From: Lachnospiraceae bacterium
Lineage (GTDB): Bacteria; Bacillota; Clostridia; Lachnospirales; Lachnospiraceae
Length of the DNA: 48,316 nucleotides
NCBI GenBank assembly: GCA_029062885.1
Contig: JAIDPH010000347.1
Location: 1 to 48,316, forward strand
Direction of reading: 5' to 3'
Shown in pieces: positions 25,886-40,631 of this stretch. The translations under genes were made by a program, and so were the position numbers. The stretch's first letter is position 1. Each line of letters starts with the position of its first letter. The notes beneath the pieces are model-generated. The model saw only the letters and a list, made by a program, of their open reading frames with translations, did not search any database and was not told the origin of the DNA.

Positions 25886-28747
25886 TTATTTGCCACTCGC
25901 TCTCTCTAACATTTTTTTCACATATACGCCGGTATAGGAATCAGGGTTATTCGCAATCTGTTCCGGGGTGCCCTCTGCAATAACGGTTCCACCGCCATCA
26001 CCGCCTTCGGGGCCTAAATCTATGATATAATCGGCTGTCTTAATCACGTCCAGATTATGCTCAATTACAACCACCGTATTTCCACCGTCAGTCAGTTTGT
26101 GCAAAATATCTACCAGCTTATGAACATCTGCAAAATGCAATCCGGTTGTCGGTTCGTCAAGAATGTAAATAGTTTTGCCAGTACTACGCCGGCTAAGTTC
26201 AGTAGCCAGCTTAATGCGCTGAGCCTCGCCTCCTGACAGTGTGGTAGATGGCTGTCCAAGCTTTACATATGAAAGGCCTACATCATATAAGGTTTCTATC
26301 TTTCTTTTTATAGAAGGCACATTCTCAAAAAACGGCACAGCTTCTTCCACAGTCATATCCAGTACATCATAGATGCTCTTTCCCTTATATTTAACTTCCA
26401 GAGTTTCCCTATTATACCGTTTACCGCCACAGACTTCACATGGTACATATACATCCGGTAAGAAGTGCATCTCTATCTTGATGATTCCGTCACCGCTGCA
26501 CGCCTCACATCGTCCGCCCTTCACATTAAAGCTGAATCTTCCCTTGTTGTATCCTCTTGCCTTGGCATCCATAGTTGATGCAAAGAGATCCCTAATCTGG
26601 TCAAAGACGCCCGTATAAGTCGCCGGATTAGAACGGGGGGTTCTTCCTATTGGCGACTGGTCAATATTAATAACCTTATCAAGCTGTTTTATGCCAAGTA
26701 TATTCTGATGCCTGCCCGGTATTGTTCTCGCTCTGTTCAAATCCCTTGCCAGACGTTTATATAGAATTTCATTTATCAAGGAGCTTTTCCCCGAACCGGA
26801 AACTCCTGTCACACAGGTCATAACTCCCAGAGGAATCTTAACATCTATGCCTTTCAGATTATTTTCTTCTGCGCCTTTAATAGTAAGGTGTCCAGCTGCC
26901 TTTCTTCTGCTGTTCGGCACCGGAATCTGCATTTTACCGCTTAAATACTGCCCCGTTATGGACTCTTCAACACGCATGATTTCTTCCGCAGTGCCTTCCG
27001 CAACCACCTCGCCACCGTGCGAACCTGCTCCCGGACCGATATCAACAATATGGTCCGCTGCTAACATCGTATCCTCATCATGTTCCACGACGACCAAAGT
27101 ATTCCCCATATCCTTCAAATTCCTTAAGGCAGCTATGAGCTTATCGTTATCCCTCTGATGCAGGCCAATGCTTGGCTCATCCAAAATATAACATACTCCT
27201 ACAAGTCCTGAACCAATCTGGGTTGCCAGTCTGATTCTCTGTGCTTCGCCTCCAGACAACGATGCCGTTGCTCTGGACAAAGCAAGATAATCTAATCCTA
27301 CCTCGATAAGAAATCCTACTCTTGCCCTTATTTCTTTCAAAATCTGCTTTCCTATCAATTCCTGCTGCTTAGTCAGGTTCATGTTTCCGACAAATTCATG
27401 CAGGTTTTTGATTGACATTGATGTAATCTCATATATATTCCTATCACACACAGTTACAGCAAGAGATTCTTTCTTAAGCCGCATTCCATTACACTCTCTG
27501 CATGGCGTAATACGCATAAATTCTTCGTATTCCTGTTTCATTATTTCCGAGCCGGTCTCTCTGTATTTGCGCTCAACATTCTTAATCAGTCCTTCAAAAG
27601 CAACCGGATATACGCCTTCTCCACGCTGCCCCTTATAATGTACTTCCACTTTTTTGCCGTTCGTTCCATAAATAATTACCTGCTGCACGGAATCCGGCAG
27701 TTCTTCAAAAGGTGTATCAAGGCTGAACTTATATTCTTTAGCAAGCGCCTGTAAAATTGCATTGGTAAAACTGCCTTCGCTGCCACTGGACTGCCAGCCC
27801 ATCGCAACAATAGCACCATCCTTTATACTCACGGTTTTATCCGGAATCATCAGATCTGCGTCAAATTCCATCTTATATCCCAGACCGAAACATTCAGGAC
27901 ACGCGCCAAAAGGGTTGTTAAAAGAGAAGCTCCTTGGTTCAATCTCTCCAATACTGATACCACAATCCGGACAGGAAAAGCTTTCACTAAAAGTAATCGG
28001 CTCACCATCGATTACGTCCAGAATCATCAATCCCTCTGACAGATTCAGTACATTTTCTATGGAATCGGTCAGTCGTCTCTCGATTCCTTCTTTTACAACC
28101 AGCCTGTCTACAATAATTTCAATATTATGCTTAATATTTTTATCGAGTTTGATTTCCTCGGAAAGTTCATACAAATTTCCGTCTACCCTGATTCTGACAT
28201 AACCGCTTTTCTTTGCTCTTTCAAATACCTTGACATGCTCGCCTTTTCGACCCCTGACAACCGGCGCCAGCAGTTGAATCTTAGTTCCCGCCGGCATGGC
28301 AAGTATCTGATCCACCATCTGATCTACAGTCTGCTTTTTAATTTCCTTGCCACAATTAGGACAATGCGGTGTTCCGATTCTGGCATAAAGAAGACGAAAA
28401 TAGTCATAGATTTCCGTAACCGTACCTACCGTAGAGCGAGGATTCCTGTTAGTAGATTTCTGGTCTATGGAAATTGCAGGAGAAAGCCCTTCTATTTTCT
28501 CAACATTCGGTTTCTCCATCTGTCCTAAGAACTGTCTTGCATAGGACGAGAGCGATTCCATGTACCTTCTCTGACCTTCCGCATATATGGTATCAAATGC
28601 CAGGGAAGATTTACCCGAACCCGAAAGTCCTGTAAGAACTACAAATTCATTACGTGGAATATCCACATCGATATGCTTCAGATTATGCTCGCTTGCTCCC
28701 CTTATCTTGATATATTCCCTCGGTCGCATTTTTACTGTGTCAGTCAT
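25886..28747 (-). CDS. uvrA: excinuclease ABC subunit A
   Basis: [35 protein letters not shown]; two ABC signatures; zinc fingers. Confidence 0.98.
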
Positions 28748-30771
28748 TTTTGATTCTCCTCTTCCATATCTCGTAGTATTTTCTTAAGTTCTACCATCTT
28801 ATCACGCAGTTCTGCTGCAGCTTCGAAATTCAAATCTGCCGCAGCTTTCTTCATCTTCTTCTCCACATCCTTGACCAGTTTTTCTAATTCCTGACGACTC
28901 ATGGACTCAGGGTCTTTTTCAAACTTGACTTCTTCTTTGTCGATAACTTTGGAAATGCTTATTAAATCCCGAACCGCTTTCCTGATGGACTGTGGTGTAA
29001 TTCCATGTTCTTCATTGTATTTTTGCTGGATTTCGCGTCTTCTGTTTGTCTCCGAAATAGCAACCTTCATGGAATCAGTCATGTTATCGGCATACATTAT
29101 AACATGTCCATCCACATTTCTGGCAGCACGTCCTATCGTCTGTATCAGAGAAGTTTCCGAGCGCAGGAAGCCCTCTTTATCTGCATCCAGAATCGCTACC
29201 AGAGAAACCTCCGGAATATCCAATCCTTCTCTCAGCAGATTAATTCCTACAAGAACATCAAATACATTCAACCTCATATCCCGAATAATTTCCGCTCGCT
29301 CCAGGGCGTCAATATCGGAATGCAAATATTTCACGCGGATTCCCACATCGTTCATATATTCTGTCAGGTCTTCCGCCATACGCTTCGTCAGGGTAGTTAC
29401 CAGAACTTTGTTTTTCTTCTCTACCTCTTTATTAATCTCTGTCACCAAATCGTCAATCTGTCCTTCTACAGGTCTTACGTCCACTTCCGGATCAAGCAGT
29501 CCTGTCGGTCTGATAATCTGTTCCGTACGCAACAGTTCATGCTCCGCCTCATAATCAGACGGAGTTGCCGACACAAACATCATCTGATCAATATGCTGCT
29601 CAAATTCTCCAAAGTTAAGAGGTCTGTTATCCAAAGCCGAGGGCAGACGGAAGCCATAATCTACCAACGTTGTTTTTCTGGCACGATCGCCAGAATACAT
29701 TCCTCGTATCTGCGGCACAGTCATATGTGATTCATCTATAATAATAAGAAAGTCGTCTTTGAAATAATCCATCAGGGTAAAAGGCGTTGCACCCGGAGGC
29801 ATACCGTTCAGATGTCTGGAATAGTTCTCAATTCCGGAACAAAAGCCAGTTTCCCGCAGCATCTCAATATCGAAATTCGTGCGTTCAGCAATCCGCTGCG
29901 CCTCCAGCAATTTATCTTCACCCTTGAAATATTTTACCCTCTCTTCCATTTCTATTTCAATATTTTTACATGCCTCATTAATTTTCTCCTGAGGAACAAC
30001 ATAATGAGACGCCGGAAAGATAGCAATATGTTCCAATGTTGCGTGAACCTGTCCCGTCAAAGGATCAGTCTGTGCAATCCTGTCTATCTCGTCTCCGAAG
30101 AATTCAATCCTTATAAGATAATCGCCGCCCTCCGCCGGATATACTTCCACTACGTCACCACGCACGCGAAAGCAGCCGCGTTCCATATCCATATCATTCC
30201 TATTATACTGTATATTTATCAGTTCCCTTATTACCTGATCCCTGTCCTTAGTCATACCGGGGCGAAGGGACACAATCATTTCTTCATAATCATCCGGACT
30301 TCCCAATCCGTAAATACACGAAACGCTGGCTACTACTACCACATCTCTACGTTCTGCAAGGGATGCAGTAGCGGACAGTCTGAGCTTATCAATTTCATCA
30401 TTAATGGAAGAGTCTTTTGCAATATAAGTATCCGTAGACGGAACATACGCTTCGGGTTGATAATAATCATAGTAACTTACAAAGTATTCTACGGCATTCT
30501 CCGGAAAAAATTCCCTAAATTCACCATATAACTGCGCTGCCAGTGTTTTATTGTGCGCTATTACCAAAGTCGGTTTCTGGAGCTGTTGAATAACATTCGC
30601 CATTGTGAATGTTTTTCCGGAACCGGTAACTCCCAGCAACGTCTGAAATTGATTTCCTTCCTTGAAGCCTTTCACAAGCTCAGCGATAGCCTGAGGCTGG
30701 TCACCGGTAGGTTGGTATTCACTGTGAAGTTTAAAAGGTTTTGATTCATTTTTCGCAGAAAAATTTTGCAC
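28744..30771 (-). CDS. uvrB: excinuclease ABC subunit B
   Basis: [40 protein letters not shown]-terminal motif; ATGA overlap with uvrA. Confidence 0.98.
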
Positions 30772-30835
30772 TAAAAATCACCTCCATAAACAGTATTAAT
30801 GATATCATAAGTTTGGGGATTTGTACAGCACTATA

Positions 30836-30850
30836 CAAACATTTGTTCTG
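30836..30850 (-). promoter_or_regulatory. candidate LexA/SOS box upstream of uvrBA
   Basis: Minus strand AGAACAAATGTTTG against the Bacillus-type consensus CGAACN4GTTYG; only the first base differs. Confidence 0.7.
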
Positions 30851-30865
30851 ATTTTATTCTGTTTT

Positions 30866-31075
30866 CACGAACTTAGATAAAGTAAATAAAAACGGAGCTC
30901 ATTGCAATGCAGAGACGCTCCATTTTTATTTACTTTACCTAAGTTCTGGTTGTTGTAATAATTAGATAATTGCAAAACTCTATCTCAATAGCCAGAACTT
31001 GGACTAAATAAACAAAAATGGGGCGTCTCTGCTCCGCAATGAGCCGCATTTTTGTTTATTTTGTTCAAGTTCGTG
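30866..31075. repeat. composite nested inverted-repeat element (two 84-nt hairpin units in inverted orientation)
   Basis: 30866-30949 aligns without gaps to the reverse complement of 30992-31075 (66/84 by eye); each unit folds as a 29-bp stem with 18-nt loop. Confidence 0.88.
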
Positions 31076-31120
31076 ACTCGAAACAATAATTTCGCAATCA
31101 GATATGTTGTAATAATATAC

Positions 31121-31155
31121 AAAAGGAGTGTTCCTGTAATATGAGCACTCCTTGG
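31121..31155 (-). terminator. terminator after ctpA
   Basis: AAGGAGTG...CACTCCTT stem followed by TTTGTATATT on the minus strand. Confidence 0.8.
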
Positions 31156-31175: not shown

Positions 31176-32537
31176 TTATCTAATCATATCTTCCATCTCT
31201 TCTATAGCACGTTCTAATTGATTATCAATGCCGTCATCATAATATGCATCTGCATCAAACTCACATACGATATCCGGTTCAATGCCTATATTATGAATGT
31301 TATTACCATTCGGTGTATAGTATGCACTGACCGTAAGTTTCAATGCCGTTCCGTCAGTAAGCGGAAGTATTCTCTGCACGATGCCTTTTCCATAAGTGGT
31401 AGTACCGATGAGTACCCCTTTATCATAATCCTTGATAGCGCCTGCAAGAATTTCAGAAGCGCTGGCAGAATTGCCATTCACCAATACAATCAAAGGCATC
31501 TGTAATTCTTTTTTCCCATCGCAGTTATATTCCGTGCGCTTTCCTGAACGGTCTTCTGTATATACAACCAGTCCTTTCGGCAGAATCTGTCTTGCGATAT
31601 CTACCACTACAGAAAGGCTTCCACCGGGATTACTACGCAGATCAAGAATAAGTCCTTTAGCGTCGGAGCCTTTTATCACTGCCAATGCTTCGACAAACTG
31701 ATCATAAGTTACTTCGTCAAATTCCGTAATCTGGATATAGCCTATACCATTGTCCAGCATTTCATGGTTAACCGTAGGGGATTCAATCTTTTTCCTTACT
31801 ACATCTATCTCCAGATAGTCCGGTTCACCTTCTCTGTAAATAGTAAGATGTACGGTTGTTCCTTCCTCACCCTTAATCATTGCAACTATTTCTGACAGTT
31901 CCAATCCATATGCCGACTCACCGTCTACTTCATATATAATGTCATTCTCTCTCAAACCTGCTTCCTGCGCAGGAGTACCTGCTATAACACCGCTGATCTT
32001 CCCATACCCGGTCTTTTCATCCAAACTTACATATGCTCCAATGCCGTAATAAACACCCTCTGTATCCTGCATCAGTGCTTTCCATTCTTCCGCAGTATAA
32101 TAAACAGAGTACGGATCACCTAAAGACGCTACCATTCCGGCATACATTCCCTCAATCATTTCGTCGGTATTGATATCTTCTTCATTATAATAATATTTCT
32201 CTATAACCTCTTCAATCGATTCCAGCTTCGCAATCGTATCGTCGTTAGTAACACCATCCGCCGATTTCCTTTCGGTGTTTGCCGGCTGGGCATTTGCAAT
32301 TTTGAAGGCAGCATCCGCCTGCGCTCCAACAAATATACAGCTTGCTGTAAGCACACTGGCAAGTATACCCGTCAGTAATCCTACGATAAACATTCCCTTC
32401 GTTTGACGTGATTCCTGCCGTACTCCCTGCGGGTTCTGCTGATTCTGTGGCTTCTGTTGTCCATTAGGATACAAATTATTCGCCGCTCCCTGATTCATTT
32501 CATTATTATTACTATATCCATAATTATCCAAAATCAT
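31176..32537 (-). CDS. ctpA: S41-family C-terminal processing peptidase with PDZ domain
   Basis: GIGAYVSLDEKTGYGKISGVIAGTPAQEAGL PDZ; LILDLRSNPGGSL; VNGNSASASEILAGAIKD; TYGKGIVQ. Confidence 0.93.
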   Translation of the reverse strand: MILDNYGYSNNNEMNQGAANNLYPNGQQKPQNQQNPQGVRQESRQTKGMFIVGLLTGILASVLTASCIFVGAQADAAFKIANAQPANTERKSADGVTNDDTIAKLESIEEVIEKYYYNEEDINTDEMIEGMYAGMVASLGDPYSVYYTAEEWKALMQDTEGVYYGIGAYVSLDEKTGYGKISGVIAGTPAQEAGLRENDIIYEVDGESAYGLELSEIVAMIKGEEGTTVHLTIYREGEPDYLEIDVVRKKIESPTVNHEMLDNGIGYIQITEFDEVTYDQFVEALAVIKGSDAKGLILDLRSNPGGSLSVVVDIARQILPKGLVVYTEDRSGKRTEYNCDGKKELQMPLIVLVNGNSASASEILAGAIKDYDKGVLIGTTTYGKGIVQRILPLTDGTALKLTVSAYYTPNGNNIHNIGIEPDIVCEFDADAYYDDGIDNQLERAIEEMEDMIR

Positions 32538-40550: not shown

Positions 40551-40560
40551 CTGCTTTAGC

Positions 40561-40631
40561 TGGGCTACAAGGATTCGAACCTTGAAATGACGGAGTCAGA
40601 GTCCGTTGCCTTACCGTTTGGCGATAGCCCA
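40561..40631 (-). tRNA. tRNA-Gln (anticodon CTG)
   Basis: Minus strand TGGGCTATCGCCAAACGGTAAGGCAACGGACTCTGACTCCGTCATTTCAAGGTTCGAATCCTTGTAGCCCA; cloverleaf with loop CTCTGAC. Confidence 0.92.

Follow-up and report, generated by a model that had tools for sequence, protein, structure and literature searches.

A MITE-like hairpin element dispersed in gut Lachnospiraceae, with nested copies between uvrB and ctpA and a strongly covarying stem

The window analysed here, the whole 48,316-nucleotide stretch of contig JAIDPH010000347.1 (Lachnospiraceae bacterium, assembly GCA_029062885.1), contains a region of inverted repeats between two open reading frames, uvrB and ctpA, as had been stated in a preliminary description of the locus, and both of these lie on the minus strand; the gene names were taken from that first reading and the sequence. 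Upstream of uvrB, CAAACATTTGTTCTG (30830-30850) is similar to a Gram-positive SOS box and is conserved in the sibling genome G050 and in the more distant genomes G007 and G020. A terminator-like hairpin, GGAGTGTTCCTGTAATATGAGCACTCC, follows ctpA (31125-31151) and is missing in G050, leaving just the hybrid hairpin described below. A tRNA gene (40560-40631, minus strand) was the window's sole match in Rfam. The features of the region are listed in Table 1.

Table 1. Coordinates of the two element copies, their parts and the neighbouring genes in the window
Feature	Position	Strand	Remarks
uvrB	28744-30771	-	ORF; neighbour gene outside the element
Copy 1, hairpin of the older element, opposite orientation	30864-30949	-	model R1, E 3.9e-18
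Copy 1 apical loop	30899-30916	-	repeat search
Copy 1 left-end remnant, AAGTTCTGGTTGTTGTAATAAT (consensus AAGTTCTGGTTATTGAAATAGA), insertion target of copy 2	30941-30962	-	comparison with other copies
Copy 2 target-site duplication, left, TGTTGTAATAAT	30951-30962		12-mer identical on both flanks
Copy 2, complete 142-bp MITE-like element	30963-31104	+	ends TAGATAATTGCAAAACT ... AATTTCGCAATCAGATA; layout as in the 143-bp G238 elements
Copy 2 left terminal inverted repeat, TAGATAATTGCAAAACT	30963-30979	+	TIR core AATTGCGAAACT enriched
Copy 2 hairpin, CCA-GAACTT-variable 7-ATAAACAAA...loop...-AAGTTC-GTGAC	30992-31077	+	model R1, E 5.9e-18; fold z -9.3
Copy 2 apical loop, GTCTCTGCTCCGCAATGA, loop type 2	31025-31042	+	
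Copy 2 right terminal inverted repeat, TATCTGATTGCGAAATT on the minus strand	31088-31104	-	
Copy 2 target-site duplication, right, TGTTGTAATAAT	31105-31116		12-mer identical on both flanks
ctpA	31176-32537	-	ORF; neighbour gene outside the element

A repeat search returned an outer inverted repeat of 96 nt (30865-30960/30981-31076, 77% complementary) together with two inner hairpins, both with 30-nt arms and an 18-nt loop (30869-30898/30917-30946, 93% complementary, and 30995-31024/31043-31072, 90% complementary), which agrees within 1-2 nt with the architecture first described. Folding was far stronger than expected by chance, the single units in unit orientation reaching z values of -9.3 and -12.8 relative to shuffled sequence and the whole 210 nt a value of -16.4, with no shuffle equalling the native sequence. 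One long hairpin is predicted at -103 kcal/mol, better than two hairpins of about -40 kcal/mol each, but only because both units are inverted copies of each other. An earlier remark on G-U pairs proved right for both copies: read on the minus strand, arm 1 pairs along its whole length, and on the plus strand arm 2 acquires additional pairs.

Positions 30866-31075 hold a single type of dispersed, non-coding repeat, present as two copies in opposite orientations, and the striking composite structure is explained by nested insertion, copy 2 being placed within the left end of copy 1, the older of the two. The left target-site duplication of copy 2 sits in the left end of copy 1, and copy 2 was therefore inserted into copy 1, in the opposite direction. 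Both the outer inverted repeat and the complementarity of the loops arise from the nesting of the two copies in inverted orientation, so that the kissing loops raised in the preliminary description, and likewise a three-level ancestral structure, are rejected as by-products of this arrangement. The hairpins of the original description were retained, but the element boundaries had been missed, the complete unit being 30963-31104 plus its duplications and not 30992-31075. Copy 2 has the termini TAG...ATA and terminal inverted repeats (TIRs) of about 17 bp, while the outer ends of copy 1 are eroded, with no recognisable TIR when its flanks are compared with the consensus.

At the same locus in G050, a sibling at about 91% DNA identity, we found one hybrid hairpin, in which the left arm comes from copy 1 and the right arm from copy 2; the pair therefore predates the split of the two genomes and was later shortened in G050. 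Such a hybrid would be as expected if the older pair had lost sequence by deletion between direct repeats. G007 and G020 have no hairpin between uvrB and ctpA.

Written in unit orientation, the sequence is CCA-GAACTT-seven variable bases-ATAAACAAAA(TAAGG)-GC-loop-GC-CCGTTTTTGTTTAT-seven complementary bases-AAGTTC-GTGAC, a hairpin of about 84 nt with fixed polarity (CCA on one side, GTGA or GTCC on the other), outside which lie two differing flanks of about 15 nt and then the terminal inverted repeats ending in TAGRYAATTGCGAAACT. The region used as a BLAST query gave 77 matches, in both orientations, at dozens of sites of its own genome, and the covariance model R1 gave 56, copy counts throughout being those of the searches. 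Beyond this genome, R1 matched in 14 of the 77 genomes of the genus, several of them with at least 57 matches, and in nine of 250 genomes of the family, each from a different genus (the genome of the window plus eight other genera), which answers the question of further copies in relatives raised at the outset. The exact left-arm pattern, searched in 85,462 species genomes, matched only a few Lachnospiraceae MAGs and one genome labelled Ruminococcus. The CCA/GTGA base, the apical asymmetry, an ACAAAA block and the polarity are conserved across genera, and the side sequences and apical asymmetry persist between species whereas the apical loops are species-specific. The 142-143 bp have no coding capacity, a single ORF-like read-through of a copy being one 276-nt frame. 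A phage origin was rejected: 60 IMG/VR contigs carried the left-arm pattern and none of them the right arm, and these are therefore chance matches.

The ends of the element are recognisable by enrichment, the TIR core AATTGCGAAACT being found 48 times in G000 and 94 times in G050 compared to 21 and 18 times for a reversed-pattern control, and the TAGRYAATTGCGAAACT ends 242 times in G238 compared to nine in the control. G238, which belongs to another genus, has dozens of young 143-bp elements (TAGGCATTTGCGAAACT...AGACTTTCGCAATTACCTA), usually flanked by an 11-bp direct repeat such as ATTACTACTAA (L363), CATTTATTTTA (L353) or TAGCTGTAGAA (L360). Of the 61 G238 elements with TAG..CTA ends, 13 lie between 11-bp duplications containing no more than one mismatch, as opposed to 0.2 in shuffled pairs; duplications of 9, 10, 12 and 13 bp also occur, with the mode at 11 bp. 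Mobility is further documented by occupied and empty sites, two copies (C52 and C333) having empty orthologous sites in G050 and a G050 copy being absent from the matching site in G000; the sites filled in one sibling and vacant in the other are C52, C333 and one in L068. The element thus behaves like a MITE, since it is short and non-coding, has terminal inverted repeats and target-site duplications, and occurs as dispersed copies with presence/absence polymorphism; this is the part of the earlier proposal, a mobile MITE-like palindrome, that was supported.

Several related structures were also encountered. Another MITE-like family, with members about 220 bp long (L312-L317, L323, L331; in G050 and G000), has the same terminal repeats and 11-bp duplications around a different and larger hairpin, GTAGTTGTGCAATATATACAAAACAAAAGCAGGTGC...GCGTGCCTGCGTTGATTTGTATATATTGTACAAC. 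Remnants of 50-80 bp without a hairpin keep both terminal repeats (L398, L376 and L382 in G238, L310 in G050), and around one of them, L398, there is a 12-bp duplication without mismatch. Together, the family with shared ends and the hairpin-less derivatives support the view that the ends, and not the hairpin, define the mobile unit. Longer G238 elements (L377, L386, L397 and L399; 174-240 bp) have extra sequence in the loop or an arm; in many cases this includes a common segment with CACCAGGACTCCTCCCA..., which represents a second repeat nested within the hairpin. In G050 the hairpin of the C12 site (L154, L078/L167) stands between GAACTT direct repeats, and in G000 it is precisely missing between these repeats.

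In its anatomy the element is ERIC/bcr1-like. Target duplications are TA for Correia elements and TTTAT for bcr1, as opposed to about 11 bp here. The Correia/NEMIS elements of Neisseria, whose transcripts can be processed by RNase III (PMC10969869), are likewise MITEs with terminal repeats, but the long internal hairpin of the present element is separate from its terminal repeats. With bcr1 of the B. cereus group (about 147-167 bp), often found in untranslated regions (PMC3446304, PMC2267715), it has in common a Firmicute host, an intergenic, MITE-like character, a similar size and a conserved fold, though the host group and the sequence are different and the resemblance is one of anatomy. ERIC/IRU, a MITE of about 127 bp in enterobacteria and Vibrio (PMC2267715, PMC10969869), is also small, non-coding, intergenic and dispersed, with a long imperfect hairpin and no known transposase; this likeness too is one of anatomy, the Lachnospiraceae element having a different sequence and a hairpin internal to separate terminal repeats of about 17 bp, with a target duplication of about 11 bp.

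The stem is the most informative part of the family. In a set of 48 copies, pairing extends to 97.8% of stem cells, and two-sided changes occur at 16 of the 22 pairs, amounting to 114 cells; shuffles gave 22 and slid controls no more than 13. Pairing is not uniform along the stem: in 129 copies mismatches peak at positions 8-10 (14, 25 and 12%), fall to 8.5% at position 11 and for the most part stay within 0-5% over positions 12-22. In G238, G-T mismatches at positions 8 and 9 affect 50% and 86% of copies, compared to 0-5% for mismatches at almost all remaining positions below the apical asymmetry. The two zones also differ between near-identical G238 copies, i.e., pairs with at most three differences outside the stem, where two-sided and one-sided differences number 25 and 1 at positions 11-24 and 0 and 26 at positions 3-10, counts that are non-independent and reflect few independent events; independent double changes in very young copies number about 3-6. 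Two copies, L353 and L399, differ from their subfamily consensus over 143 positions solely by one complementary double change, and a compensatory indel as well as several double changes were noted between orthologues in G000 and G050. The mid-stem rate is about 1.1-1.9 per site (left arm) as opposed to 1.4-2.1 outside, which is close to that of unpaired positions, and hypermutation of the variable stem segment is for this reason unsupported.

We consider it probable that the family as a whole is a MITE with nested copies, moved in trans, whose hairpin arms are at times copied from one another. A putative transposase, working by cut-and-paste or replicatively, would recognise the TAGRYAATTGCGAAACT ends and duplicate about 11 bp of the target, and between these ends lies the imperfect hairpin of about 30 bp with its fixed polarity. 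Less certainly, replication across this hairpin may occasionally copy one arm from the other (template switching), in which case a mid-stem change in one arm would quickly be transferred to the other and the arms would stay complementary while drifting. TIR pairs 1-4 kb apart and three DDE_Tnp_1 genes (in G000, G050 and G238) were checked for an autonomous partner and none was found, draft assemblies being prone to break at repeats.

Other origins of the repeats were weighed against this explanation. Dispersed imperfect palindromes that in places stand head-to-head, in the window as well as at L004 and at L352 in G238, recall REP/BIME-type palindromes moved by a RAYT tyrosine transposase, the first of the identities suggested for the element. 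The head-to-head pair of the window is, however, a nested insertion, and the search for a RAYT/TnpA-REP gene in the genome of the window returned a single Y1 transposase, an IS200/IS605-type TnpA (NF033573, 146 bits) that scores 34.8 bits with the REP-associated model, under the cut-off of 80, with no unit adjoining it and no RAYT flanked by inverted units. Furthermore, a REP is a palindrome of 20-40 bp with a GTAG-type head (PMC2817692, PMC3733652), while the units described here measure 142-143 bp, have a hairpin of about 84 nt with CCA and GTGA sides, and possess terminal inverted repeats and target duplications, which are not REP features; this identity was abandoned as very improbable. 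A structured RNA, in which the transcript would fold within an operon or UTR and alter mRNA stability or termination, the covariation being due to selection, fared somewhat better. It draws on the very strong covariation, on the fold of the single units (z of about -9 to -13), on the location of the copies, nearly all intergenic and many between tandem genes near start codons (44 tandem, 13 divergent and 12 convergent among 69 classified copies), and on the precedent of ERIC and Correia elements, which act at the RNA level (PMC10969869). G-U pairs on the unit strand slightly outnumber A-C (47:31), but this bias is weak and not significant (p 0.09, with copies that are not independent) and hardly argues for selection on an RNA strand; the orientation relative to tandem genes shows no preference (16 with, 27 against, p 0.13). 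In Rfam, no family matched the window element above the gathering score and other copies gave just sub-threshold miRNA hairpin matches, and the copies are polymorphic between sibling species. A bidirectional terminator for convergent genes is not favoured either, with only 12 of 69 copies between such genes and no terminator called by a simple scan. An RNA function appears improbable, although a role in mRNA stability or termination may be possible at single sites.

The main rival to arm copying is structural selection acting on the same MITE, in which the hairpin, extruded or as single-stranded DNA, would be needed for transposition, so that only lineages with a paired mid-stem keep spreading and the double changes would have arisen in source copies by ordinary compensatory substitution. 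This agrees with the conservation across genera of the polarity, the CCA/GTGA base, the apical asymmetry and the ACAAAA block, with a mismatch zone at positions 8-10 conserved in two independent lineages, and with the youth of most copies, whose differences may have come from source copies. It is less easily reconciled with the double change standing alone in two copies among 143 positions, which is hard to obtain via two independent steps, with a mid-stem evolving no slower than unpaired positions, and with hairpin-less derivatives of 50-67 bp that have target duplications, which fit TIRs being sufficient for movement but may be later deletions; we regard selection as rather unlikely, while giving it considerably more weight than an RNA function. 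A mid-stem rate close to that of unpaired positions is what copying predicts, whereas two rare independent hits would not be expected to give it. Ordinary compensatory evolution would be expected to run more slowly and to leave intermediates, and single-event coupling is preferred over it. Template switching is known to explain multibase compensatory changes by one replication event and to repair and preserve hairpins (Monttinen and Loytynoja 2022, PMC8794818), a result obtained for RNA genes, whereas here a like signature comes from young copies of a mobile DNA element, for which any RNA role is putative. Against arm copying stand the persistent G-T at positions 8-9 in most G238 copies and the TAAGG/CCGTT apical asymmetry, which is kept across genera. 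Copying without restriction would have erased both, and copying is therefore either confined to part of the stem or these sites are held by selection; also, template switching would be expected to invert some loops, and none of 85 was inverted only. On balance we infer hairpin-templated arm correction in preference to selection, and its more specific form, in which the arms are rewritten together in single events confined to positions of about 11-22, by template switching or by an arm-copying step of transposition, is proposed tentatively, as possible though somewhat short of probable.

This hairpin MITE family of gut Lachnospiraceae, with its mapped ends and target duplications, is absent from Rfam and from the literature searched, and its hundreds of copies of varied age, with coupled and uncoupled stem zones, constitute a natural experiment on selection versus template switching. 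This question bears on the use of covariation to call functional RNAs: if arm copying is the true cause, a family without RNA function would yield the full covariation signature usually taken as proof of conserved RNA structure. Exchange may also affect the loops, as the loop types at two orthologous sites differ between sibling genomes (L022 vs L279 and L069 vs L282), and at the second of these both genomes have the same variable stem segment, suggestive of exchange or conversion of the loop.
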